Shown here one piece after another: positions 679-42,793 of a DNA stretch of 43,449 bases. Below the pieces are notes generated by a model. That model did no database searches and was not told the DNA's origin. It saw only the letters and a list, made by a program, of their open reading frames with translations. A program made the translations under genes and the position numbers. Source of the DNA: Zoogloea sp. GTDB lineage: Bacteria > Pseudomonadota > Gammaproteobacteria > Burkholderiales > Rhodocyclaceae. Numbering within the stretch: the first letter of the stretch is position 1; every line of letters starts with the position of its first letter. The DNA lies in assembly GCF_030157465.1 (NCBI RefSeq), contig NZ_JAOAUU010000112.1, positions 1 to 43,449 of the forward strand, in the 5' to 3' direction.

Positions 679-3462
679 TCAGAGGGTCGCGCGAAGCTTG
701 TCGATCTCGGCACGGAGCGGGGAATTGTCGGTTGCGCCCTTTTGCGCTTCGTCGAGTTCCTTGCGCGCACCGTCCTTGTCACCGCTCTTGACGAGCGCCC
801 GGGCAAGGCTGACACGCAACTGCGGCAACTTCGGTCCGAGGCTGACAGCCTTCCTGAGAAGCTCGGTTGCCTTGGCGGCATCACCGCTTTCAAGGTACAG
901 AATACCCAGCGTATCAAGCACGACCGGGCTGTTCGGCGCCAGGGCAACCGCCTGCTCGGCAATACTGATCGCACTCTTGTCGTTCACCTTGCCCAGCGCC
1001 CAGGCCAGGTTGTTGAGAATCATCGGATTCTTGGGTGCAAGTTCGAGCATCTGGCGATACTGCTGCACAGCAAGATCGTACTTCTGCTCGGCAAGACTGC
1101 GTTCGGCAAGGTAGGTTCGAACGACCAGATCCTTCGGATTGGCCTTGACCCATTCGGTCGCCTGCTTGGCCGCCTCGCTCGCCTGGCCGGCAGCGATCCG
1201 GGCCGAGTGGAGCCGGACGAAGGACTGCGGGCTCTTGTCGCGCTTGTATGCCTCGATATGGGCGTCAACCGCTTCAGCCTTTTTGCCCGTTGCCGCCAGC
1301 AATTCGCCTTCAAGAACGAACCCGACAGCCGCATCCTTCCGCTGTTTCTGGATGTCCTTGGCAATGGCAATCGCGGCATCACCGCGCTTGCTGTTGAGCA
1401 AAAGTGCGATCAGGCGCTGCTGAGCCTCAACCGCATCCGGCTTGATAGCCAGCGCCTTGCGCAGGCTCTGCTCTGCACCCGCCAAATCCTTGGAAGCAGC
1501 CTGAAGGTCGGCCAGTGCAACCAGCGGTGCCGGCGACCCGGGCACGCGCGAACTGAGTTTGGTGTAAGTACTCAATGCTTGCTGCATTTCACCGGCGGCA
1601 ACCTGGGCGCGACCGAGCAGTTCAAGCACGCTCGGATCGTCCGGCGCAGCGACCGATGCTTCCTGGGCCAGCAGCAATGCCCGCTTCGAATCCCCGCTCT
1701 GCACCAGCAGGCGCACCAGCGCCGCGCGGATCGGCAGCGCTGTCGGCACAGCCGCGAGCCCCTTGTCCAGCAGAGCCTGCACATCCTTGACCTGGGAACC
1801 GGTCGTGGCAAGGAATTCTGCGTACTGGAGATAGGCCTGGGACGACTTGGGGTTTTTCGCGATGAAGTCGTCGTAGCGCTTGCGGGCCGCATCGACCTGC
1901 TTGTCAGCGATGTCGAGGCGGGCCAGATTGGCGACGGCGGGGAGGAAATCAGGCTTGAGTTCGAGCGCCCGGGTGAATGCCTTGCGCGCACCTGCCGCAT
2001 CCCGGCTGGCAAGCAACACGCCCCCCTTCATGTTGTGGGTGACAGGATCGTCCGGCTTTTTCTTTTCGAGCACCTGTACCGCAGCCATCGCCTTGGGGAT
2101 CTCATTGCGGCGAAGGTGGGCCATGATCAGCGTGATGTCGGCCTGGATGCTGTCCGAATCCAGTGCAGAGGCGGCCTCGAGATCATGGAAGGCCTGTTCG
2201 GTTTCCCCGCCGGCCAGCCTCGACACACCCAGGCGAGTACGGTACTGGGCATTCTTGGGATCGGCGGCGGTAGCACGGCCGAAATACTCCTCGGAGCGGG
2301 TGAAGTCACCGTTCATCGCGTACACCTGACCCGCCAGGTTCAGCAAGCCCACATCGTCGCTACGATCCTTGAGCAGCGGCTGCAGGGCTTCGAGCGCCCG
2401 GCCCGGCTCGCGCATGCCGACGTAGGTGGAAACAAGCAGCCGCCGCGCCAGCAGAAGATTGGGCTGCCGCGCAATGACCTTGTTGAGATTTTCCTGGGCC
2501 TGGACGAAGTCCTGGCGCTGCAACTGGAGGGTAGCCGCCAGCAGTTGCGCCGGCACGTAGTCGGGGGCACTTCGCAGTACCTGCTGGATGCCCTCGTAAG
2601 CCTCGTTGGTCTTGCCGTTACGAACGTTGACGTAGGACTGCAGGTACACCGCCAGGGGGTGTCCGCCCAGCGCCTTGCGCATATCGGTGACCTTGGCCTG
2701 GGCCGCTTCCAGCTTGTTCTGGCGCAAAAGCACGGAGATCAGATTCTGGTGGGCGGCGACATCCGTCGGCTTCTCGGCGATGACCGCCTCGTAAGCAGAC
2801 ACGGCTTCGTCGAACCGGTTGAGTGCAAGCAGCAGGTCGCCACGCAGCGAGTTGGCCTCGGCGAGCTTCGGCGATTCCTTCAGGACGCCATCCACGTCGG
2901 CAAGCGCACCTTCGAGGTCACGACCGAGAGCGCGCGTGCGTGCGAGTCCGACCCGGGCCAGGGCATAGCCGGGGGATTCCTTCAATGCCGCATTCAAGGC
3001 TGCCGAGCCCTCTTCACGCTTGCCCCGTCCCAACAGGTCGAGACCCTGGGTCGTCAGCAGGGCGGCGCGCGCCTCGGGCTGCTTGAGCTGACGACTGGTC
3101 AGCAGGCTGTCGATCTTGTCGCCCTGGCCGGATGCCAGCAGGGCCTTGGCCAGAATCGGAACAACTTCATCGGCGGAATAGCCGGCGTCCAGCGCGCGGG
3201 TCAGTTCCTTTTCAGCGCCGGGATAATCGGCCTGTTCGAAATAAAGCTTGCCGAGCAGATAGCGGGCCTCGCCGATATCCGGGTTTTTCTGCAGCGCATT
3301 CTTGAGCTGGATCGTGGCCGCATTGCGATCATTCTTGGCGATGTATTCCTTGGCGGAAGTAACCATCGACTCCGGGCTGGCGCCGCATGCGGCGAGAAGC
3401 AAGGCGCACAGCGTGCTTACGGCGACATTCCGGACTTTGCTGCGCTTGGTTTGGGCACGCAT
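679..3462 (-). CDS. prsT: XrtA/PEP-CTERM system TPR-repeat lipoprotein PrsT
   Basis: About 927 residues, almost entirely tetratricopeptide-type helical repeats (for example KNPDIGEARYLLGKLYFEQADYPGAE is one unit, described here by position ~50-75). The N-terminus is basic, then hydrophobic, with lipobox LLAAC, so Cys26 should be lipidated and the protein anchored in the outer membrane or periplasm. Length and architecture match PrsT (TIGR02917), which sits beside prsK/prsR in exosortase A genomes. The frame opens with a GTG at 3483 overlapping the prsR stop, but the ATG at 3462 has AAGGAA 8 bases upstream and gives a cleaner signal peptide, so I chose it. Role is not established; PilF- or BcsC-like scaffolding of a polysaccharide export complex is an inference from the repeats and context. 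Confidence 0.9.
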   Translation of the reverse strand: MRAQTKRSKVRNVAVSTLCALLLAACGASPESMVTSAKEYIAKNDRNAATIQLKNALQKNPDIGEARYLLGKLYFEQADYPGAEKELTRALDAGYSADEVVPILAKALLASGQGDKIDSLLTSRQLKQPEARAALLTTQGLDLLGRGKREEGSAALNAALKESPGYALARVGLARTRALGRDLEGALADVDGVLKESPKLAEANSLRGDLLLALNRFDEAVSAYEAVIAEKPTDVAAHQNLISVLLRQNKLEAAQAKVTDMRKALGGHPLAVYLQSYVNVRNGKTNEAYEGIQQVLRSAPDYVPAQLLAATLQLQRQDFVQAQENLNKVIARQPNLLLARRLLVSTYVGMREPGRALEALQPLLKDRSDDVGLLNLAGQVYAMNGDFTRSEEYFGRATAADPKNAQYRTRLGVSRLAGGETEQAFHDLEAASALDSDSIQADITLIMAHLRRNEIPKAMAAVQVLEKKKPDDPVTHNMKGGVLLASRDAAGARKAFTRALELKPDFLPAVANLARLDIADKQVDAARKRYDDFIAKNPKSSQAYLQYAEFLATTGSQVKDVQALLDKGLAAVPTALPIRAALVRLLVQSGDSKRALLLAQEASVAAPDDPSVLELLGRAQVAAGEMQQALSTYTKLSSRVPGSPAPLVALADLQAASKDLAGAEQSLRKALAIKPDAVEAQQRLIALLLNSKRGDAAIAIAKDIQKQRKDAAVGFVLEGELLAATGKKAEAVDAHIEAYKRDKSPQSFVRLHSARIAAGQASEAAKQATEWVKANPKDLVVRTYLAERSLAEQKYDLAVQQYRQMLELAPKNPMILNNLAWALGKVNDKSAISIAEQAVALAPNSPVVLDTLGILYLESGDAAKATELLRKAVSLGPKLPQLRVSLARALVKSGDKDGARKELDEAQKGATDNSPLRAEIDKLRATL

Positions 3463-3470
3463 CTGCAGGG

Positions 3471-3476
3471 TTCCTT
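3471..3476 (-). promoter_or_regulatory. Ribosome binding site deciding the prsT start
   Basis: AAGGAA on the minus strand, 8 bases before the ATG at 3462. It lies inside the first codons of the longer reading frame (GTG at 3483), which has no comparable site, so it favours the shorter protein. It sits just past the prsR stop codon (3480-3482), a normal arrangement for coupled translation. Confidence 0.6.
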
Positions 3477-3479
3477 GAA

Positions 3480-4847
3480 TCACGTTGAAGTCTCTTTCTT
3501 GATTCCGAAGCGGTTCATCAAATCGTAGAGCGTGGGCCGGCTGATGCCGAGCACCTCGGCCGCGCGGGCCACGTTGCCGTTCACCCTGGCAATCACCCGG
3601 ACGACGGCCCGCCGTTCGGCCTCTTCGCGCACAACACGCAGATTCAGCGCCTCGAGCGCCTCATCGGTATTCACGTCGAGGCCGACATCGTCGGCTGAAA
3701 TGCAGTTTCCATCGGCCATGATGACCGCACGCTTGATTGCGTTTTCCAGCTCGCGGATGTTGCCCGGCCAGCGGTGGGATTCAATGCTTTGCACCGCGTC
3801 ATCGGTCAGGCTCATGGAGCCGCGACCATGATCGCCGGCGAAGCGCTGTACAAAGGCGTGGGCGAGCAGTACTGCATCGCCGTCGCGATCACGCAGGGCG
3901 GGAATGTCGACAATGATCTCGGCAAGGCGGTAGTAGAGGTCTTCCCGGAAACGTCCGGCCTGGATCAGCCCCTTGACGTCCTGGTGCGTGGCACAGACGA
4001 TGCGCACATCCACCGGGATCTCTTCACGGCCGCCGATCCGCTCGATGACCCGCTCCTGCAGAAAACGCAGCAGCTTGGCCTGCAACGGCATCGGGAGATC
4101 GCCGATTTCGTCGAGAAACAGAGTGCCCTTGTTGGCCACCTCGATCTTGCCGAGGGTTTGCTTGACGGCACCGGTGAAAGCGCCTTTTTCGTAACCGAAA
4201 AGTTCGCTTTCAAGGAGGTTTTCGGGAATGGCGGCGCAGTTGATGGCGACGAAACGCTCGTTCCGGCGCGGCGACAATTCATGCAGGCCACGTGCCAGCA
4301 CCTCCTTGCCGGTACCGCTCTCGCCCAGGAGCATGACGGTCACGTTTGCCGAGGAGACCTTTTCGATGAGCCGGCAAACCTTCAGCATTCCTGCATCGCG
4401 GGTGATGACGCCGGACAGCGCACTGCCCTGCTGGACTTTCAGGCGCCGGTTATCCTGCTGCAGATCGTAAAGGCGCAGGGCGCGGTCGAGGGTCAGCGCC
4501 AGAAGTTCGGGCTCGAAAGGCTTGGCAAAGAAATCGTAGGCTCCCATGCCCACGGCACGCACGGCGTTTTCGCGATCGTGCTGGCCGGTCAGGACAACGA
4601 CCTTGGTATCCGGTGCAAGGGCCAGAATCTCGCCCAGCAGCCGAAAGCCTTCGGTTACGTCATCGGGGGCCGGCGGCAGGCCGAGATCCATCGTGACAAT
4701 GGCCGGCTCGTGACGCCGCAATTGCGCGATGGCTTCTTCGCGGTTGCTCGCAACCACCGTTTCGAACTGGTCAAAAGCCCAGCGCATCTGCTTTTGCAGC
4801 GCCGGATCGTCTTCGACGATCAACAAGGTCCTGCGTTTATCAGTCAT
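3480..4847 (-). CDS. prsR: PrsR, sigma-54-dependent PEP-CTERM response regulator
   Basis: 455 residues in three parts. Residues 8-120 are a receiver domain with acidic pocket EDD and phosphoacceptor Asp54 (VTMDLGLPP). Residues ~145-375 are an AAA+ sigma-54 activator domain with Walker A GESGTGKE and the GAFTGA loop that contacts sigma-54. The C-terminus is a Fis-type helix-turn-helix (NVARAAEVLGISRPTLYDLM). This is the arrangement of the PEP-CTERM-box response regulator family (TIGR02915). The ATG at 4847 follows AAGGGA that overlaps the prsK stop; only 5 bases separate the two genes, so kinase and regulator are translated together. All activator residues look intact, so it should drive sigma-54 promoters of exopolysaccharide and PEP-CTERM genes. 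Confidence 0.93.
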   Translation of the reverse strand: MTDKRRTLLIVEDDPALQKQMRWAFDQFETVVASNREEAIAQLRRHEPAIVTMDLGLPPAPDDVTEGFRLLGEILALAPDTKVVVLTGQHDRENAVRAVGMGAYDFFAKPFEPELLALTLDRALRLYDLQQDNRRLKVQQGSALSGVITRDAGMLKVCRLIEKVSSANVTVMLLGESGTGKEVLARGLHELSPRRNERFVAINCAAIPENLLESELFGYEKGAFTGAVKQTLGKIEVANKGTLFLDEIGDLPMPLQAKLLRFLQERVIERIGGREEIPVDVRIVCATHQDVKGLIQAGRFREDLYYRLAEIIVDIPALRDRDGDAVLLAHAFVQRFAGDHGRGSMSLTDDAVQSIESHRWPGNIRELENAIKRAVIMADGNCISADDVGLDVNTDEALEALNLRVVREEAERRAVVRVIARVNGNVARAAEVLGISRPTLYDLMNRFGIKKETST

Positions 4848-4852
4848 ATCCC

Positions 4853-6952
4853 TTAGTTTGCGACCGTTGTGTTACCGGCGTTCTGGACGTTCTCGGCAAG
4901 GGGAAGACAGATGTCGAAGCGGGTTCCGACACCCACTTCGCTATGCACGGCAAGGTTGCCTCCCAGCTCCTGGACATACTGTTGCGCCTCGTAGGCGCCT
5001 ATCCCCATACCGCTCGCCTTTGTTGTCTGAAAAGGCTTGAAAAGCTGCTCCCGAATGAATGCAGCAGACATGCCCGATCCGGTATCACGAACCGTGATGC
5101 ATGCCTGATTACGCTGCTGGGATAGCTCCACTGACACACTACCATGCTCGGAAGTAGCGTCTAGGGCATTTTGCACGATATGCCCAAGGATGCGTTCAAG
5201 TCGTTCGGAATGGGCAATAACGGACAGTTCGGGCGCTCCTTCGACGAATCGCGGACAGGGCTGGAACATTCGTTTTGACTGGACGATATGCGCCAGCAAG
5301 GCGTTGAGCGGCACCGGCTTCCTCTGGTTGATCGGCGTTTTTTCCATCAGCTGGGTCATCAGGCCGCGCATCCGCTCCTCGACGTGCCGGACCGTATCGA
5401 GCATGTCGGCCTGGAACTCCGGATTATCCTTGTGGCGCTCGGCGTTCCTCAGCATCAGCGACATCTGGGCGACGAGATTCTTGAGGTCATGAACCACAAA
5501 GGCCGACATGCGGTTGAAGGCATCGAACTTGCGGGCCTCCAGCAGCGCATCGGTCACCTGCATCCGGGCAAAGTAGCTTGCAGCCTGCCGGCCAGCCATC
5601 TTCAGCAGGTCGAGAACCTCCCAATTCACGTCGATAGGCGTACGCGGCGTAAGAAGCACCACGAAGCCCACCAGCACACCGGACGAAATCAGCGGCACGA
5701 TCAGCCAGATATCCGACAGATCGGACGCCCATTCAGGCAGCTGGGCCTGCTTGATTCCGGCCGAAACGCCGCTGCGCAACTCCTGCAGGTTCACGACCCA
5801 TTCACGTTCAAGCATGAAGGCGGTGAACTCGGAGCCCTCACGTTCCTGGATGCCATAGTGCGGCATGTTCAGTCGCGCCTGCTGACTGTAGCAGCCATTC
5901 GCATCGCGCAGCCAGACACCGCCTCCGGGGCTTTCGACGAGATCAGCCAGAGCCTTGACGACGGACTCGCCGAGGCTGAGTCCGTCGCCGGCAACGGACA
6001 GGGCCTGTGTTACGCCCAGCCATTCCGTCCGGTAGTCATAACGATAGGCGAAGAAATGCTTGGCCAGAAAAACCTTGAGACGGGCCCGGGATGCGCCCGA
6101 AACGAAGATCACGCCTAGAAACAGCACGCCGCCAAACAGCAGCGCCAGCTGCAGCGCCTCGCCCCACTCGCCGCCGAAGTAGCGCATGTAGTAGCCGGCC
6201 GCGGCGATGATGAGCAGGTACAGGCCCGACCCGGCCAGCGCCGTCGAATGAAAGACCACGTGGCGGGACACCGAAACACGGAAGGTCCACTCGGGATTGC
6301 GGGACGCCGACACGGCAACCAAAGGCAGCGCCAGCGCATGCGCAAACCCCCGCACGCCCCAGATCACCGGATGGATACGGCTGAACAGCAACATCTCGGA
6401 ATACAGATAGACGTCGAACGCAAAGAGCCCGCCCAGCGCCAGCACCAGCGGCTTGACCCCCCAGCGGGAGCGCTCCGTCACCGAGCGATAGAACAGTTCG
6501 AGGAGCACAAGCCCGAAAACGGAGGTGAGCAGCGAAGTTGCCGCCCAGGTGCGCAAAGGCGTGCCGTAGGCAGGCAGACCCAGCGTAAAACAGGCCACAC
6601 CCACCGCGCCGAGCGTCACGACGGCCAGCACGCCCGGCCGGGGCCAGCCCGGAAGCGCGCCGTCCGATCCACCGGCAGCAGGCTGGGAAAGCATCGCCAC
6701 CAGAAAACCGAACCACGCGGCCATCCGCAGCACATCGAGCAGATTTCCCAACTGGAACATCCAGACCCAGCCCGATGCGGCAAACGCCCAGTTTGCCGCC
6801 GCCCACAGTCCGCTGGTCACGACTGCGGCGATAAGAAAGATCCCCTGCCGGCCCTTGCGCCAGGCCACACCAAGGTAAAGCCCGAAGAGACCGTGGAGCA
6901 GCGCGGCAAATGCGTAGCTCCACGCCGAAAATTGGGAAAGGATGGAATCCAT
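4853..6952 (-). CDS. prsK: PrsK, XrtA/PEP-CTERM system histidine kinase
   Basis: 699 residues. Roughly the first 290 residues contain about eight to ten hydrophobic membrane segments; a GAF-like region follows (~320-470), then the dimerisation box with phosphoacceptor His488 (AFVVHDLKNLVAQ) and an ATPase domain with N box IVQNALDAT, G1 DTGSGM and G2 MGIGAYEAQQY. This is the layout of PrsK (TIGR02916). The signal is probably membrane-linked or small-molecule, but nothing in the sequence identifies it. A TTG at 6955 could extend it by one codon; the ATG at 6952 is better placed after GAGG. A terminator-like hairpin lies just upstream, so expression may be partly uncoupled from the sugar transferase gene. 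Confidence 0.93.
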   Translation of the reverse strand: MDSILSQFSAWSYAFAALLHGLFGLYLGVAWRKGRQGIFLIAAVVTSGLWAAANWAFAASGWVWMFQLGNLLDVLRMAAWFGFLVAMLSQPAAGGSDGALPGWPRPGVLAVVTLGAVGVACFTLGLPAYGTPLRTWAATSLLTSVFGLVLLELFYRSVTERSRWGVKPLVLALGGLFAFDVYLYSEMLLFSRIHPVIWGVRGFAHALALPLVAVSASRNPEWTFRVSVSRHVVFHSTALAGSGLYLLIIAAAGYYMRYFGGEWGEALQLALLFGGVLFLGVIFVSGASRARLKVFLAKHFFAYRYDYRTEWLGVTQALSVAGDGLSLGESVVKALADLVESPGGGVWLRDANGCYSQQARLNMPHYGIQEREGSEFTAFMLEREWVVNLQELRSGVSAGIKQAQLPEWASDLSDIWLIVPLISSGVLVGFVVLLTPRTPIDVNWEVLDLLKMAGRQAASYFARMQVTDALLEARKFDAFNRMSAFVVHDLKNLVAQMSLMLRNAERHKDNPEFQADMLDTVRHVEERMRGLMTQLMEKTPINQRKPVPLNALLAHIVQSKRMFQPCPRFVEGAPELSVIAHSERLERILGHIVQNALDATSEHGSVSVELSQQRNQACITVRDTGSGMSAAFIREQLFKPFQTTKASGMGIGAYEAQQYVQELGGNLAVHSEVGVGTRFDICLPLAENVQNAGNTTVAN

Positions 6953-6963
6953 CAAGCCTCAGC

Positions 6964-7033: not shown

Positions 7034-8419
7034 TTAATGCGCCCCCTCACCGGTAAGCACAACCCTGACGGTTTCGAACAACACCACCGTATCGAGGAAC
7101 AGCGTGTGGTTCTTGACGTAATAGAGATCGTACTGCAGCTTGTTGATCGCGTCATCCACCGATGATCCGTACTGGTACCGGACCTGGGCCCAGCCCGTGA
7201 CACCCGGCTTGACGCAGTGACGTACTGCATAGAAGGGGATATCGCGGGTCAGCTGATCGACGAAGAAAGGGCGTTCGGGACGCGGCCCGACGAGGCTCAT
7301 GTCGCCCTTGAGAACATTGAACAATTGCGGCAGTTCGTCGATGCGAACCCGGCGGATGAAACGCCCGACCCGCGTCACGCGATCGTCGTTGGCGGTTGCC
7401 CAGCGCGGCTTGCCGTCCCGCTCGGCATCCCGGCGCATGCTGCGAAACTTGGTGACCTTGAACAGCCGTCCGCCCAGACCAACGCGCTCCTGGCGATAGA
7501 ACACCGGTGCGCCATCCTCCAGCACGATCAGCAGTGCGGCAAGCACCATGACAGGCGCGGCAAGCACCAGCAGAAGCAGCGAAACGAAGATGTCGAAAAC
7601 GCGCTTGACCAGCGTCCGGCCCCAGCCCTGACGGAAGCCTTCGCCGTAGATCAGCCAGCTCGCCCGCAGGGAATCGATACGCACCTGACCACGCACCCGC
7701 TCGAAAAAGCTCGACAGGTCGAGCACCTTGATGCCGGCCATCTTGCAGTCGAGCAGTTCGCGCAGCGGAATGGCGCCGCCCCTGCGCTCCTTGAGCGCGA
7801 CGATGATTTCGGTGACGCGAAGATGATTCGCGGCGGCCAGCAGGCTGCCATCGAAATGGATGATCTGCTTGGGATTGACCCGAACCTCGTCTCCGGAAGC
7901 GGCGGGATAGAAGCCCACGACCTGAAGACTGGAACTCGCGGGATGGGTAAGTGCATGCTCGACCGCTGCTGCATCCGAACCCGTCCCGATTACCATGATA
8001 CGTTTCACAAAAACCCCTGCACCCGTGCGCCGGGCCGTAAAACCGCGCACTGCAACCACGAAACCCAGGAGGGCAATCACATTCAGCTCAAGCGCCTCAT
8101 GAGCGAACTCGCCCCATGGCAGAACCTGGAATATACCGTAAGCCACCGGAACACTCAGCGCGATGGACATCCCGATCCGCATCAATGTCTGACGGAAATC
8201 CGCGCCGAAGCCTGGCCGATAGAGGCCGAGCGCACCGTTCAGGATCATCATTGCCACAGCAAAGGCAAAGGCCGAGGGCACGACTGCAGCAACAAGCATT
8301 CCGTCCACCCGCGCCTGCAGCACAAAAACCACGACAACCGCCACGAACAGCAGCATGGCATCGAAAATCAGCTGAAGGATTGTGCTAGACGGTACGTAAT
8401 GATTGAATAATTTGAGCAT
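7034..8419 (-). CDS. XrtA/PEP-CTERM-associated sugar transferase (TIGR03013 type)
   Basis: 461 residues. The N-terminal third has about four to five membrane segments and a CoA-binding-like region (IMVIGTGSDAAAVEHAL). The C-terminal ~190 residues are the bacterial sugar transferase domain: KRVFDIFVSLLLLV membrane hairpin, YRQERVGLGG, KFRSMR, DELPQLFNVLKGDMSLVGPRPE and KPGVTGWAQV. Such enzymes transfer a sugar-1-phosphate from a UDP-sugar to undecaprenyl phosphate at the inner membrane, the first committed step of a polysaccharide. Adjacent prsK/prsR/prsT identify it as the exosortase-A-linked subfamily. The ATG at 8419 is preceded by GAAGG. It is the first gene of the leftward cluster, with a 449-base upstream gap that must hold the promoter. 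Confidence 0.92.
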   Translation of the reverse strand: MLKLFNHYVPSSTILQLIFDAMLLFVAVVVVFVLQARVDGMLVAAVVPSAFAFAVAMMILNGALGLYRPGFGADFRQTLMRIGMSIALSVPVAYGIFQVLPWGEFAHEALELNVIALLGFVVAVRGFTARRTGAGVFVKRIMVIGTGSDAAAVEHALTHPASSSLQVVGFYPAASGDEVRVNPKQIIHFDGSLLAAANHLRVTEIIVALKERRGGAIPLRELLDCKMAGIKVLDLSSFFERVRGQVRIDSLRASWLIYGEGFRQGWGRTLVKRVFDIFVSLLLLVLAAPVMVLAALLIVLEDGAPVFYRQERVGLGGRLFKVTKFRSMRRDAERDGKPRWATANDDRVTRVGRFIRRVRIDELPQLFNVLKGDMSLVGPRPERPFFVDQLTRDIPFYAVRHCVKPGVTGWAQVRYQYGSSVDDAINKLQYDLYYVKNHTLFLDTVVLFETVRVVLTGEGAH

Positions 8420-34844: not shown

Positions 34845-34904
34845 TTTCGCAGCGGGTCATCCGTTATGCCCGGCCCGCCCCTAACACAACGAGGGAGATG
34901 GATC

Positions 34905-35702
34905 ATGAGCAAGAAGGCACTGTGCATCGGCATCAACGACTACCCCGGCACCCAGAACGATCTCTCCGGCTGCGTCAATGACGCCAACGACTGGGCGGCA
35001 GCCCTCGCCGCGCGCGGCTTCGCCGTCACCAAGCTGATCGACGCCCAGGCCACCAAGGCTGCGATGGTCGCCGCCATGAGCGGCCTCATCTCGGGCGCAG
35101 CCAAGGGCGATACGGTGATCATCACGTATTCCGGCCACGGCACCTGGGCGCCCGACAAGAACGGCGACGAACCCGACGGCCGCGACGAAGCCCTGTGCCC
35201 GTGGGATATCGGCTCCGGCAAGGTGCTGCTCGACGACGAGATCGCCGTGATCTTCGCCAACCACGTCACCGGCGTGCGGGTGCTGCTGATCTCCGACAGC
35301 TGCCACTCCGGCAGCGTCACCCGGGGCGACGACAGCGATCTCGACCCCGGCATGCCGCGCGCCCGCTTCCTGCCCCCCAGCGTCTGGATGAAAGCCGAGG
35401 ACGTGCCCGCCCCCAAGACAGCCCGGCTGCCGCTGATCAGCGGCCTGACGCGCAGCGGTGGTGACCTCCTGATGGCCGGCTGCACCGACACCCAGTACAG
35501 CTGGGACACCAGCTTCAAGGGCCGGCCGAACGGCGCCTTCACCTACTACGCGCTCAAGGCCCTCGCCACCCTGCCGGCCACCGCCAGCTACGCCGACTGG
35601 TTCAAGAAGATCAGCCCGACCTTCCTGCCCACCAACCAGCTGCCGCAAAACCCGCAAATCTTCGGCAGCCGCACGGCCCGCGCCTGGAAAGTCTTCGCCT
35701 GA
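34905..35702 (+). CDS. Caspase-like (metacaspase) cysteine protease
   Basis: 265 residues, a single peptidase C14 (p20-like) domain with no signal peptide, no membrane segment and no fused sensor or pore domain. It starts KKALCIGINDYPG, has the catalytic His78 in TYSGHGTWAPD and the catalytic Cys133 in ISDSCHSGSV, the canonical caspase dyad; the acidic residues after the Cys (GDDSD) fit basic-P1 specificity of metacaspases. A later LLMAGCTDTQYSWD and NGAFTYYALKAL are also typical. ATG at 34905 follows GAGGGAG. Followed by a very strong terminator, so it is a monocistronic unit. Target and trigger are not evident. Confidence 0.88.
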   Translation: MSKKALCIGINDYPGTQNDLSGCVNDANDWAAALAARGFAVTKLIDAQATKAAMVAAMSGLISGAAKGDTVIITYSGHGTWAPDKNGDEPDGRDEALCPWDIGSGKVLLDDEIAVIFANHVTGVRVLLISDSCHSGSVTRGDDSDLDPGMPRARFLPPSVWMKAEDVPAPKTARLPLISGLTRSGGDLLMAGCTDTQYSWDTSFKGRPNGAFTYYALKALATLPATASYADWFKKISPTFLPTNQLPQNPQIFGSRTARAWKVFA

Positions 35703-38901: not shown

Positions 38902-39150
38902 TCAGCCCAGTTTTGCATTCACGAATTCAACCAGCGAGCCCACGGACGCGAAGGTAGAACCATCGATCTCGTCATCTTCGATGACAAAACCGAAGCGCTC
39001 TTCGAAAATGTTGATCAAACCAACGACTGCCATCGAATCCAGATCTGGCAGGGCGCCCAACAGGGGCGTGTCGAGATCGAACTGGGCCGCAGCACCATCC
39101 AGATTCAAAACCTCGTCGAGAATCGACAGCACTTCCTTCTTCGTATCCAA
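38902..39150 (-). CDS. Acyl carrier protein, exosortase A system-associated
   Basis: 82 residues, acidic and helical, with the phosphopantetheine attachment serine at Ser39 in PDLDSMAVV. The start is a rare TTG (39150), chosen because GGAG stands seven bases upstream and no ATG/GTG lies near the N-terminus. It diverges from the AMP-forming ligase gene 400 bases away and is not near fatty-acid synthesis genes, so it is a dedicated carrier, most likely loaded by that ligase. Carrier proteins of this type are found in exosortase A clusters. Confidence 0.88.
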   Translation of the reverse strand: MDTKKEVLSILDEVLNLDGAAAQFDLDTPLLGALPDLDSMAVVGLINIFEERFGFVIEDDEIDGSTFASVGSLVEFVNAKLG

Positions 39151-39550
39151 AACTCACTCCAATCGGAAAAACCAAACACAAAAACCTGGAAGCAACAGCA
39201 TTCCCTGCCGCATTCCCTGCCCTGTGAAGCCTCGAAACGGCACGCCTCCATCATTATAAGCGACAAGGCCGCGTTCGGCACCGTGATCTAAGTTGCAGGC
39301 CCAGAAGCAAGCCGGATCGAGCGGAAAGAACATTTTTCATTGTTTTGCATCTTGGCCCGGCTTTCTTCAAAAAACCCCGGCAACCCTGCAGTCTGCCCCG
39401 GCCTCCAGCCTACTCCAGGGCTGCAGGCGTGAGCTTTTTTGCGTGGCACGTCACGGACCTGCGATAGACTCATGCATAGCCAAAACGCGTTAAACATCCA
39501 CGCATCAACCCTCTGCGTCCCAACAGGATCAACGAACAGTTTCAAGATCG
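39151..39550. other. Divergent control region between ACP and ligase genes
   Basis: 400 bases without a credible gene. Leftwards, a perfect TATAAT (39253-39258, listed separately). Rightwards, no clear -35/-10 or correctly spaced sigma-54 site; TGGCACG occurs at 39444-39450 but without TTGC at the right distance. Two PstI-type palindromes give a widely spaced CCTGCAG/CTGCAGG pair (39386-39426). The ligase ATG has no strong ribosome site. Confidence 0.45.
39253..39258 (-). promoter_or_regulatory. Candidate -10 element for the ACP gene
   Basis: TATAAT on the minus strand, 103 bases before the TTG start. No good -35 hexamer is found at 16-18 bases, so an activator would be needed. Confidence 0.3.
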
Positions 39551-41155
39551 ATGCCCAAGACCTCTCTCCTCCACGAACTCATCAGCGCATCGGCCGAACG
39601 GGCGCCGAGTTCGCCGGCACTCACCTCTGGCCGGGACACCCTGAGCTACCACGAACTCGACAACCAAGTGGCGGGCCTTGCAAGCGGGCTCATCGAACTC
39701 GGCATCGAGCGCGGAGAGCGCGTCGGCATCTTCCTCGACAAACGGATCGAAACCGTTGTGGCCTCGTTCGCCGCGGCGCGGGCAGGCGCCGCTTTCGTAC
39801 CGGTCAACCCCATCCTGAAATCAGAGCAGATCGGCCACATCCTGCGTGACTGCAATGCGCGAGTGCTCATCACCTCGCCGGAACGACTGCCCCTCATTAC
39901 AGGCGCCCTTGAGCACTGTCACGACCTTCGCCACGTGATTCTTACCGCGCCGTCCGCCAAGCCGGTCAATCTGCCCGGTGTCAGCATCGCGCTCTGGTCA
40001 GACCTGCTGGCCACCCCGCGCCGTGCCGGCAACCGGATCATCGACACCGACCTGCTGTCCATTCTCTACACTTCTGGCAGCACCGGTCGTCCAAAAGGCG
40101 TCGTACTGTCTCACCGCAACATGGTGGCGGGCGCAAAGAGCGTCGCAAGTTATCTGGGCAACAACCCGGATGATTCGCTACTGGCCGCGCTGCCCCTGTC
40201 CTTCGATGCGGGCTTCTCCCAGCTCACCACCGCATTTCACAGCGGCGCACGGGTCGTCCTGCTCAACTACCTTCTCCCGCAAGACGTGCTGAAGGCCGTG
40301 GTCCGTGAAAAGATCACCGGCCTGACCGCCGTGCCACCGCTCTACATTCAGCTTGCCCAGCTCAACTGGCCTGAAACCGCCACCAGCCACCTGCGCTATT
40401 TCGCGAACACCGGCGGGCGCATGCCGCTCGAAACACTCAAGACCCTGCGCGCCCAGTTGCCGCAGACCAAGCCGTTCCTGATGTACGGACTCACCGAAGC
40501 TTTCCGCGCCACCTACCTGCCCCCCGAGCAGGCCGACATTCGCCCGGACTCGATCGGCAAGGCCATTCCGGACGCCGAAGTGCTTGTCTTGCGTGACGAC
40601 GGCAGCGAGTGCGCCCCCAACGAACCTGGCGAACTCGTCCAGCGCGGCGCACACGTCGCGATGGGCTACTGGAACGATCCGGAAAAAACGGCTGAGCGCT
40701 TCAAGCCGCTTCCCGCCTCGGCCCCGGGCCGCCAGGCGGGCCTGGTACTGCCCGAAATCGCCGTCTTCTCCGGCGATACGGTCCGCCGCGATGAAGAGGG
40801 CTACCTTTATTTCATCGGACGTCGCGATGAAATGATGAAAACATCCGGCTACCGGGTGAGTCCGACCGAAGTGGAAGAGATCCTTTACGCCACCGGAAAA
40901 GTCGGCGAATGCGTGGCCTTTGGCATTCCTCATGCAACCCTCGGACAGGCAATCTGCGTGATCGCAACAGGCAAGGATGGAACACAGCTCGACCCTGCCA
41001 TCCTCCTGACAGAATGCCGCCAACGCATGCCCGCATACATGATCCCGGCAGCGATCGAAGTCCGTGAAGGCCCCCTGCCCCGCAATCCAAACGGCAAAAT
41101 CGACCGCAAGACCCTGTCCACCGAATTCGACACCGCAAACAAGGCACAGCAATGA
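39551..41155 (+). CDS. AMP-forming acyl/aminoacyl ligase, exosortase A-associated (TIGR03098 type)
   Basis: 534 residues of the adenylate-forming superfamily. Core motifs: LYTSGSTGRPKG (172-183) for ATP binding, FANTGGRMP and MYGLTEAFRATYLPP in the active site, YWNDPEKTAERF, YFIGRRDEMMKTSGYRVSPTEVE hinge region, and the catalytic C-terminal Lys516 in PNGKIDRKT. The enzyme should activate a carboxylic or amino acid as the adenylate and pass it to a thiol, here probably the divergently encoded carrier protein. Its stop overlaps the next ATG (ATGA), coupling it to the PLP decarboxylase. Substrate unknown. Confidence 0.88.
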   Translation: MPKTSLLHELISASAERAPSSPALTSGRDTLSYHELDNQVAGLASGLIELGIERGERVGIFLDKRIETVVASFAAARAGAAFVPVNPILKSEQIGHILRDCNARVLITSPERLPLITGALEHCHDLRHVILTAPSAKPVNLPGVSIALWSDLLATPRRAGNRIIDTDLLSILYTSGSTGRPKGVVLSHRNMVAGAKSVASYLGNNPDDSLLAALPLSFDAGFSQLTTAFHSGARVVLLNYLLPQDVLKAVVREKITGLTAVPPLYIQLAQLNWPETATSHLRYFANTGGRMPLETLKTLRAQLPQTKPFLMYGLTEAFRATYLPPEQADIRPDSIGKAIPDAEVLVLRDDGSECAPNEPGELVQRGAHVAMGYWNDPEKTAERFKPLPASAPGRQAGLVLPEIAVFSGDTVRRDEEGYLYFIGRRDEMMKTSGYRVSPTEVEEILYATGKVGECVAFGIPHATLGQAICVIATGKDGTQLDPAILLTECRQRMPAYMIPAAIEVREGPLPRNPNGKIDRKTLSTEFDTANKAQQ

Positions 41156-42396
41156 GCGAAGTCACGCGCCAAAAACCGGCCCATGCACCGATGGATCAGT
41201 TCCGATCCGAAGCCGGTGAATTGCTCGTCGGCGGAATACCCCTGCGACGCCTTGCAGCCCGGGTCGGCCAGACACCCTTTTACGCCTACGACCGCGCCCT
41301 GCTGACGCGCCGCGTAGCCGAACTGAGAGCCAGCCTTCCGGCAGGAATCAAAATCCACTACGCGATGAAGGCAAACCCGATGCCCGCGGTTGTCGACCAC
41401 ATGGCAAAGCTGGTCGACGGGATCGACGTGGCATCGGCAAACGAATTGAAGGTCGCGCTGGACAGCGGCGCAAACCCTCAGGAAATCAGCTTCGCCGGCC
41501 CCGGAAAACGGGTGGAAGAACTGCGTCAGGCCGTCGCCTCCGGCATCCTGATCAATATCGAATCATTCCGCGAAGTCTCCGAACTCGCCACCATCCGCCG
41601 CACGACGGGATCGACAGTCCGCGTAGCGGTGCGGGTCAATCCGGACTTCGAACTCAAGAGCTCCGGAATGAAGATGGGCGGCGGCCCAAAGCAGTTCGGC
41701 GTTGACGCAGAACAGGTGCCGGCTCTGCTCGGAAAAATAGGCGAAGCGGGCCTGTCCTTTGAAGGTTTCCACCTCTTCGCAGGCTCCCAGAACCTCCGTC
41801 CCGAAGCCATCGTCGAAGCACAACGGAAATGTTTCGATCTCGCCGTGCGCCTTGCCGAATTTGCACCATCGCCAGTCAAATTCCTTAACCTCGGAGGCGG
41901 ATTCGGCATCCCCTATTTTCCGGGCGAATCCAGGCTTGATTTAAGCAGCATCGCTACCAATCTGGAAATACTCGCCGGGGAAGCACGTGATCGACTACCC
42001 GAAGCGGAAATCGTCATTGAACTCGGTCGCTACCTTGTTGGTGAAGCTGGCGTTTACGTATGCAGTATTCTCGACAAAAAGGAATCCCGTGGGCACACGT
42101 TCCTTGTCGCCGATGGCGGACTCCATCACCACCTGTCAGCGTCGGGAAACTTCGGTCAGGTGATTCGCAAGAATTACCCTGTCGCAATCGGGGATCGCAT
42201 GGGCGAACCAATGGGCGAACCTGTATCGGTAGTCGGGCCGCTGTGCACGCCCCTCGACATACTGGCTGACAAAATGCAGCTACCGAATGCAGAGCCCGGC
42301 AACCTCGTTGTGATTTTCCAGTCAGGCGCATATGGCGCAACAGCAAGCCCAAGAGGCTTCCTGAGCCAACCGGATCTGTTGGAAGTACTCGTCTGA
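41152..42396 (+). CDS. PLP-dependent decarboxylase, exosortase A system-associated (TIGR03099 type)
   Basis: 414 residues, fold-type III (ornithine/diaminopimelate/arginine decarboxylase) family. PLP Schiff-base Lys73 is in IHYAMKANP; the glycine loop is LNLGGGFGIPY; the family Cys (Cys365) is in VVGPLCTPLD. Both barrel domains are complete. The close link to an adenylating ligase and a carrier protein suggests it decarboxylates an aminoacyl group while bound to the carrier, as BtrK does in butirosin synthesis, rather than a free amino acid. Diaminopimelate decarboxylase (lysA) is considered and thought unlikely because of the neighbours. Confidence 0.88.
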   Translation: MSEVTRQKPAHAPMDQFRSEAGELLVGGIPLRRLAARVGQTPFYAYDRALLTRRVAELRASLPAGIKIHYAMKANPMPAVVDHMAKLVDGIDVASANELKVALDSGANPQEISFAGPGKRVEELRQAVASGILINIESFREVSELATIRRTTGSTVRVAVRVNPDFELKSSGMKMGGGPKQFGVDAEQVPALLGKIGEAGLSFEGFHLFAGSQNLRPEAIVEAQRKCFDLAVRLAEFAPSPVKFLNLGGGFGIPYFPGESRLDLSSIATNLEILAGEARDRLPEAEIVIELGRYLVGEAGVYVCSILDKKESRGHTFLVADGGLHHHLSASGNFGQVIRKNYPVAIGDRMGEPMGEPVSVVGPLCTPLDILADKMQLPNAEPGNLVVIFQSGAYGATASPRGFLSQPDLLEVLV

Positions 42397-42499: not shown

Positions 42500-42793
42500 T
42501 CAGAAAAAATAGTCGTCCGGCAACAACTCAATTTGCAAGTCATTGTCTTTGGCGAAATTCTTTAGAAAATTGTAGGCCAGAGGCTCGATGTCGTGAATCC
42601 GTGCGTCCACCAAAACCGTCTTATCGCCCTTCAGGTTACATGCGGGTCGCACATGCGGTGAATAAGTCATTCTGTTGTCAGCGCCAAAGGCCGACATTAC
42701 TCCACATAACCGATCAGCCCAGTCACTTGGCCGAAAAGTCCGGCCATCACTGGTACGCCCAACAATCACGAAGTTTTGAACTTTTTGAATCAT
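42500..42793 (-). CDS. DUF3579 family protein
   Basis: 97 residues. The pattern GRTFRPSDWADRLCGVMSAF, then YSPHVRP, and IEPLAYNFLKNFAKDNDLQIE matches the DUF3579 family, small cytosolic proteins widespread in Betaproteobacteria, without known function. The ATG at 42793 has no clear ribosome site. It is convergent with the decarboxylase gene. Base composition is more AT-rich than the genes to its left, and a transposase remnant lies upstream, so this is near an insertion boundary. Confidence 0.8.
   Translation of the reverse strand: MIQKVQNFVIVGRTSDGRTFRPSDWADRLCGVMSAFGADNRMTYSPHVRPACNLKGDKTVLVDARIHDIEPLAYNFLKNFAKDNDLQIELLPDDYFF

Follow-up and report, generated by a model that had tools for sequence, protein, structure and literature searches.

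What reaction is catalysed by the proteins of the families TIGR03098 (ligase_PEP_1) and TIGR03099 (dCO2ase_PEP1), and where does its product end up? Both families are described by models of the type 'hypoth_equivalog' and have generic names. The question is raised by a stretch of DNA from Zoogloea sp. (the window; it spans 43,449 bases of contig C111, in a draft genome of 4.70 Mb that is rated 100% complete), in which a carrier protein gene lies next to a ligase gene and a decarboxylase gene of these two families. The original prediction, made from the sequence of this locus, was that the trio forms a carrier-bound decarboxylated amino acid pathway linked to exosortase A, and it knew of no established function for such exosortase-associated enzymes. 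Indeed, no function was found for either family in the literature searched by family names and accessions, subscription papers being mostly outside its coverage, and the terms ligase, decarboxylase and acyl carrier were all absent when Haft 2006 (PMC1569441) was searched for them. We propose, with a probability of about 0.68, that the trio uses its dedicated carrier to build an omega-amino acyl thioester for the modification of an exopolysaccharide.

The residues and the gene overlap on which the prediction was built are all in place: Ser39 of the carrier, Lys516 of the ligase, Lys73 and Cys365 of the decarboxylase, and the ATGA shared by the ligase stop and the decarboxylase start (Table 1), from which we infer that the translation of the two enzymes is coupled. 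The three genes are real, and what had gone unmentioned is that the carrier gene is on the strand opposite to that of the ligase–decarboxylase pair and is divergently transcribed. The ligase scores 785.3 bits with TIGR03098 (cut-off 592.35) and the decarboxylase 620.7 bits with TIGR03099 (cut-off 478.45), which rules out chance matches; the ligase also matches the AMP-binding (ANL) model PF00501 with 281.5 bits.

Regarding the decarboxylase, a pyridoxal phosphate (PLP) enzyme of fold III, its best solved relatives are two entries of BtrK (266 bits), the next one scoring 162 bits and the best LysA 149 bits. It is 38.5% identical to BtrK over 374 aligned positions and has the motifs KMGGxPxQFG, DGGxHHH and GPLCTPxD (CTPxD) in common with it, and it is 30–32% identical to two LysA sequences. 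In this fold, an acidic residue beside the catalytic cysteine contacts the side-chain amine of the substrate, and in diaminopimelate decarboxylase (DAPDC) an arginine of the specificity helix contacts the carboxylate, as described in section 8 of PMC7857480. The residue that follows the catalytic cysteine, Thr366, is a threonine in 74/74 relatives and in the BtrK and VinO-like sequences; it is a glutamate in both LysA sequences. The other decarboxylase of the genome found by TIGR03099 (L002) has the LysA motifs CESGD and MNDLARP.

The prediction had proposed that phylogeny be used to place the decarboxylase relative to BtrK and LysA. In a tree of 50 sequences, the 16 sampled members of the family of the window, including its own, form one clade (100/99), the two LysA sequences stand apart (100/100) and BtrK is in a sister group (96/89); the VinO-like (L158), 6KNH and BtrK sequences have long branches, so that their placement is unsure. 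The decarboxylase is like LysA in its fold and its catalytic Lys and Cys, but unlike LysA it has Cys-Thr instead of Cys-Glu, Ser329 in place of the arginine of NDLIRP, a score with the lysA model TIGR01048 (250.2 bits) under the cut-off of 297.9, and a separate clade, and we rejected a free amino acid decarboxylase of the LysA or ornithine decarboxylase (ODC) type for these reasons. Judging from its residues and its relatives, the decarboxylase is of the type that acts on a carrier or conjugate.

The substrate pocket of the ligase can be compared to that of VinN, in which Asp230 and Ser299/Arg331 have been proposed to recognize the amino and carboxyl groups of 3-methylaspartate (sections of PMC7756342; see also PMC11253843). 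The mapping was made by aligning a VinN-like Streptomyces protein (L158) to 3WVN, where the three residues are at chain positions 246, 315 and 347 (a uniform offset of 16). They correspond to Asp219, Thr287 and Arg319 of the ligase of the window, the change from Ser to Thr being conservative; the VinN-like Streptomyces protein also has a threonine at the place of Ser299. Across the 78 ligases of the family, including that of the window, the aspartate is present in all, the second position is Thr in 75 and Ser in 3, and the arginine is found in 77 and replaced by Ser in one. The aligned cassette ligases have both Asp and Arg in 15 cases out of 15, one of them (L154) being devoid of the Thr/Ser. 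As a control, the genome was searched for ANL enzymes at E up to 1e-20, which returned 12; neither the Asp nor the Arg of the pocket occurs in any of the 11 enzymes other than the ligase, and the hypothesis of an ordinary acyl-CoA ligase was rejected on this basis. The pocket residues point to a ligase of the amino acid type, and the name of acyl-CoA ligase given to TIGR03098 in the database is probably a misnomer. In a tree of 25 cassette ligases and four of the 11 other ANL enzymes, which has few outgroups and long branches, the cassette ligases form one clade (100/99) whose branching is broadly that of the decarboxylase tree. In a PDB search with the ligase alignment, the five alignments listed are all with entries of linear gramicidin synthase.

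The carrier is recognized by the Pfam PP-binding model (27.8 bits, cut-off 20.8); it matches 11 NCBIfam models and reaches the cut-off of none of them. Among solved proteins, 2LKI gives the highest score with it (57 bits). Its TTG start is preceded by GGAGTGAG. In a survey of 80 decarboxylase loci, the ligase gene directly precedes the decarboxylase gene on the same strand in 62; among the 49 loci in which the decarboxylase is flanked on both sides by more than 9 kb (referred to as full-flank loci), 48 have the ligase and 39 the carrier; 38 have both, and in 35 of these the carrier and ligase genes are on opposite strands. Decarboxylases at least 80% identical to that of the window come from eight loci, seven of which are named Zoogloea. 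A search of 72,556 plasmid records with the carrier matched 31 records, of which 15 were listed; 14 of these 15 are Sinorhizobium plasmids, and in all 14 the carrier and decarboxylase matches are spaced by 75 bases, these plasmids coming from closely related strains rather than being 14 independent cases. The carrier is dedicated to the ligase–decarboxylase pair.

Such carrier chemistry is known in the biosynthesis of vicenistatin and fluvirucin (PMC11284099) and of butirosin (PMC7857480), and it has been proposed, with a gene deletion, for bolagladin (PMC7756342), according to sections of these papers. The closest precedents for the whole set are VinN/VinL/VinO or BolO/BolC/BolN, and BtrK is the precedent for the decarboxylation. 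In the vicenistatin pathway, an ANL enzyme loads 3-methylaspartate on a standalone carrier and the decarboxylation follows; the trio likewise consists of an ANL ligase with an Asp/Thr/Arg pocket, a standalone carrier and a fold-III PLP decarboxylase, and its ligase groups with the VinN-like one against four other ANL enzymes of the genome. The VinN/VinO-like pair of Streptomyces (L158), which adjoins methylaspartate mutase and polyketide synthase (PKS) genes, has the same gene order and the same 4-base overlap as the pair of the window. Unlike VinN/VinL/VinO, the trio is set in exopolysaccharide/exosortase loci, and no VinM-like second adenylating enzyme was found beside it, a search of the contig for ANL genes at E up to 1e-20 having given a single one.

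In the butirosin pathway, a gamma-glutamyl-carrier is decarboxylated to a 4-aminobutyryl (GABA)-carrier by the BtrI/BtrJ/BtrK set. BtrJ is an ATP-grasp ligase. The analogy with butirosin drawn in the prediction therefore stands for the decarboxylase, of which BtrK is the best solved relative, and fails for BtrJ as the precedent of the loading step, which we rejected because its fold differs from that of the ANL ligase of the window; the context also differs, an aminoglycoside in one case and a polysaccharide in the other. Bolagladin is made by a betaproteobacterium, and the logic proposed for BolO/BolC/BolN is the same, an isoaspartyl-carrier being converted into a beta-alanyl-carrier, but this set feeds a non-ribosomal peptide synthetase (NRPS); BolO keeps Asp230 and Ser299/Arg331 of VinN (sections of PMC7756342), whereas the ligase of the window has Thr in place of Ser and Ala in place of Phe231. 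What is known is the carrier-bound chemistry, and what would be new is its variant in an exosortase/polysaccharide setting.

Other arrangements of the same kinds of genes also occur. Fold-III decarboxylases accompanied by several adenylating enzymes occur on plasmids of Rahnella and Tritonibacter (L159 and L160, where carrier, ketoacyl synthase (KAS) III and acyl-CoA dehydrogenase genes are annotated) and in L143, L145 and L146; these five loci look like bolagladin-type beta-aminoacyl pathways. On a plasmid of Streptomyces sp. NBC_01208 (L157:7992-12902), genes for a decarboxylase, an AMP-binding enzyme and a carrier adjoin those for a holo-ACP synthase, a hotdog protein, an ectoine synthase and a diaminobutyrate acetyltransferase.

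On the basis of the residues of its pocket, the ligase would take L-aspartate or L-glutamate and adenylate the carboxyl of its acidic side chain, Asp219 holding the alpha-amino group and Arg319 and Thr287 the alpha-carboxylate, and the activated amino acid would then be loaded on the carrier, at the phosphopantetheine that Ser39 bears. The closest relatives of the decarboxylase, and the LysA residues that it has lost, suggest that it would remove the alpha-carboxyl of the carrier-bound amino acid, giving a beta-alanyl-carrier or a GABA-carrier. Last, a transferase, perhaps specific to each lineage, may attach this acyl group to a sugar amine or hydroxyl in the exopolysaccharide that is made with the exosortase A system, and so add positive charges; it is the gene context that points to this step.

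The link to exosortase A that the prediction had made is real at the level of genomes. The XrtA gene is on another contig than the trio (G000:C17:64493-65269; 281.5 bits, cut-off 208), in a locus where a chain-length protein, a tyrosine autokinase, an outer-membrane protein, an ATPase, a polysaccharide deacetylase (TIGR03006), a FemAB protein, three glycosyltransferases, an amidotransferase and an O-glycosylation ligase all score above their cut-offs, while the window itself has Prs genes (Table 1). Floc formation by Aquincola needs prsT and epsB2 (sections of PMC9850573). We examined the co-occurrence, as the prediction had recommended, in 299 Pseudomonadota genomes: TIGR03099 exceeds its cut-off in 19 and XrtA in 20, and 17 genomes have both, versus about 1.3 expected by chance (Fisher p 9e-23, relatedness being ignored). 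XrtA is found without the decarboxylase in G267, G015 and G007, and the decarboxylase without XrtA above cut-off in G107 and G155, the latter having an exosortase below the cut-off.

The link is not obligatory, however. In G107, the decarboxylase (596 bits) and the ligase (731 bits) are both above their cut-offs and a carrier is beside them, and no exosortase was found by two models. With a looser threshold (E up to 1e-90), the decarboxylase is found in 35 of the 299 genomes, 23 of which have an exosortase match at 1e-10 and 12 of which have none; with the broader Pfam exosortase model, 11 of these 12 are still without a match, G115 giving 58 bits (the genome of G149 is 74% complete). Strict dependence on an exosortase was rejected, considering G107 and the 10 further genomes that have no match with either model. 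In the tree, the decarboxylase of G107 clusters (100/97) with its counterparts from Sinorhizobium pSymA and Aureimonas, which are found among glycosyltransferases, polysaccharide deacetylases and O-antigen ligases, and the trio of a Shinella plasmid is likewise amid polysaccharide genes. This group is within a clade of 25 sequences (96/92) that includes the family of the window and sequences from the XrtA genomes G126, G127, G250, G294 and G102, the order of its three subgroups being open; in the ligase tree, the Sinorhizobium–Aureimonas pair is nearer to the family of the window than the sphingomonad sequence of the XrtA genome G127 (99/97). Polysaccharide-type genes are beside the decarboxylase in G107, G022, G265 and G175, as judged partly from cluster labels only. 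Since relatives occur in rhizobial polysaccharide loci and G107 has the trio and no exosortase, the trio does not need an exosortase, which favours a polysaccharide as its target over the PEP-CTERM proteins; the prediction had named both, and the gene context favours the former.

It could be argued that nothing more than a locus unites the three genes, the ligase activating ordinary acyl groups for CoA or ACP and the decarboxylase taking free diaminopimelate, lysine or ornithine as its substrate, for the supply of polyamines or lysine. The name of TIGR03098 and the CoA ligases among the first ten of the Foldseek list of the ligase model go in this direction, but we consider it very unlikely: the Asp and Arg that would bind the amino acid are conserved in the family and present in 0 of the 11 other ANL enzymes, the residues for the distal amine and the distal carboxylate are lost in the decarboxylase, the genome has another, LysA-like gene (L002), and the trees of the two enzymes branch broadly alike. 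The carrier-bound pathway of the prediction fits better than the rivals weighed here, considering the BtrK-type decarboxylase, the amino acid-type pocket of the ligase and the dedicated carrier.

The same omega-amino acyl carrier might instead serve the decoration of PEP-CTERM proteins, or their sorting, rather than a polysaccharide. The lack of an exosortase in G107, the position of its decarboxylase with those of Sinorhizobium and Aureimonas amid glycosyltransferases and polysaccharide deacetylases, and the fact that the decarboxylase is missing in 3 of the 20 XrtA genomes make this unlikely, despite XrtA being above its cut-off in 17 of the 19 decarboxylase genomes among the 299 and PrsT, PrsR and PrsK being in the window. 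Finally, the relatives of the same logic that were found with a published function belong to natural product pathways, and related cassettes have extra adenylating enzymes, in G130, G197 and G115 and also on the Rahnella and Tritonibacter plasmids, where KAS III genes accompany them, so that the trio might feed a small-molecule pathway (a starter unit like those of vicenistatin or bolagladin, a signal or a siderophore), its proximity to exopolysaccharide genes being regulatory. This is quite improbable too, because a single ANL gene, and hence no second adenylating enzyme, was found on the contig at E up to 1e-20, and because the trio of relatives often has genes for Wzx, glycosyltransferases and amidotransferases in its surroundings.

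Several observations nevertheless weigh against our proposal of an omega-amino acyl carrier for exopolysaccharide. Two residues of VinN differ in the ligase of the window, Phe231 being Ala220 and Lys330 being Phe318, and Phe231 is reported to be important for the binding of aspartate (sections of PMC11253843). In the 77 other ligases this position is Ala in 74, Tyr in 2 and Pro in 1; the sequences with Tyr are distant ones, among them the sphingomonad, Shinella and VinN-like sequences. The smaller Ala220 may admit glutamate, so that the substrate may be either aspartate or glutamate. When the structure model of the ligase (mean pLDDT 79.6) was used as a Foldseek query, VinN was not among the 50 matches listed out of 658; aryl-, acyl- and prolyl-activating enzymes lead the list, so that specificity is not discriminated. 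In 10 of the 49 full-flank loci, the carrier was not found within the fetched stretch. The decarboxylases of some relatives are outside polysaccharide loci, in multi-adenylase clusters in G130, G197 and G115 and among other genes in G028 and G149. In addition, a decarboxylase 47.5% identical to that of the window is part of a formaldehyde-oxidation cluster on plasmid pAZKH of Azoarcus sp. KH32C (L161:9872-11185); it is annotated as an alanine racemase, adjoins fae and formylmethanofuran dehydrogenase/transferase genes, and the genes listed around it include neither a ligase nor a carrier. This enzyme possibly carries out a step in the synthesis of a methanofuran-type cofactor.

The transfer step is where the remaining difficulties lie, as no conserved transferase was found. 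In the 49 full-flank loci, the exosortase A-associated alpha/beta hydrolases TIGR03101 (hydrolase 2) and TIGR03100 (hydrolase 1) occur in 30 and 29 loci and a GNAT protein of the PF13480 group in 20. Other frequent neighbours are an asparagine-synthase-like amidotransferase (cluster of 27 loci), a Wzx flippase (25), a DegT aminotransferase (24) and a GT4 glycosyltransferase (19). Neither hydrolase is in the genome of the window, in which the best match of TIGR03100 is 19.8 bits and TIGR03101 has no match at 1e-12. In the gene-order table, two Zoogloea relatives (L007 and L011) show an equally bare arrangement, and the hydrolases are therefore not obligatory. Both are frequent beside the carrier gene in relatives, and it is from a genome rated complete that they are missing.

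A protein of 280–295 residues is encoded directly before the ligase (L084, L085, L136) or the carrier (L087), and in Zoogloea LCSB751 (L005) a relative of it is encoded two genes upstream of the ligase. Three of the four proteins were scanned, and none of the three has a Pfam match. A PDB profile search with this family gave 21 matches, none of them significant (best E 0.008), 18 of which are N-myristoyltransferases (near-identical entries) and two N-acetyltransferases, a hint that the family may have a GNAT fold. The model of the candidate L005:6166-7014 has a mean pLDDT of 38.8 (alignment of one sequence), comparing the profile of its family to that of the other GNAT group gave a probability of 0.1%, and the candidate has no match in the genome of the window (one query, no positive control). 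Another candidate, which might N-acylate an amino sugar of the polysaccharide, is L176:2738-3589 on contig C17; it resembles aminoglycoside 3-N-acetyltransferases (PF02522, 142 bits) and is about 3 kb behind XrtA, after a GT4 glycosyltransferase. No counterpart of it was found in the flanks fetched for other trio loci. A mutant of Thauera MZ1T flocculates again when given a polysaccharide deacetylase gene (sections of PMC4784049), and the deacetylase of the XrtA locus (TIGR03006) could expose sugar amines that would serve as acceptors.

More tentatively, and at slightly less than even odds, it may be that the orphan families associated with exosortase A represent a general tailoring of surface polysaccharides, in which an acidic amino acid loaded by its side chain is decarboxylated on the carrier and exopolysaccharide sugars receive the resulting beta-alanyl or 4-aminobutyryl group, so that an anionic or neutral matrix becomes zwitterionic, which would aid flocculation. 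If so, the trick of vicenistatin and butirosin biosynthesis is used outside natural products, and is common to betaproteobacteria of activated sludge and rhizobia; a carrier-protein trick of antibiotic synthesis would thereby enter the making of the cell matrix, and a modification that gives charge to exopolysaccharides would be added for rhizobia and for the sludge bacteria Zoogloea, Thauera and Accumulibacter, all three of which are among the decarboxylase loci collected. A concrete sequence of reactions also makes the families TIGR03098 and TIGR03099 testable.

Table 1. Coordinates of the trio and of the exosortase-related genes in the window
Feature	Position	Strand	Remarks
PrsT	679-3483	-	XrtA/PEP-CTERM model over cut-off
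PrsR	3480-4847	-	XrtA/PEP-CTERM model over cut-off
PrsK	4853-6955	-	XrtA/PEP-CTERM model over cut-off
TIGR03013 sugar transferase	7034-8419	-	model over cut-off
Carrier protein gene, 82 aa	38902..39150	-	Ser39 phosphopantetheine site in LDSM; TTG start
Divergent intergenic region between carrier and ligase genes	39151..39550		
ANL ligase, 534 aa	39551..41155	+	TIGR03098; Asp219, Ala220, Thr287, Arg319; Lys516 in NPNGK
ATGA overlap, ligase stop/decarboxylase start	41152..41155	+	4 bases
Fold-III PLP decarboxylase, BtrK-like, 414 aa	41152..42396	+	TIGR03099; Lys73, Cys365, Thr366

Last, we note two other genes of the window. Directly behind the decarboxylase, on the other strand, is a DUF3579 gene (42500-42793), which belongs to a cluster of seven members including that of the window. 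The protein encoded at 34866-35702 weakly matches the EACC1-associated caspase model, with 28 bits, below the cut-off of 140.

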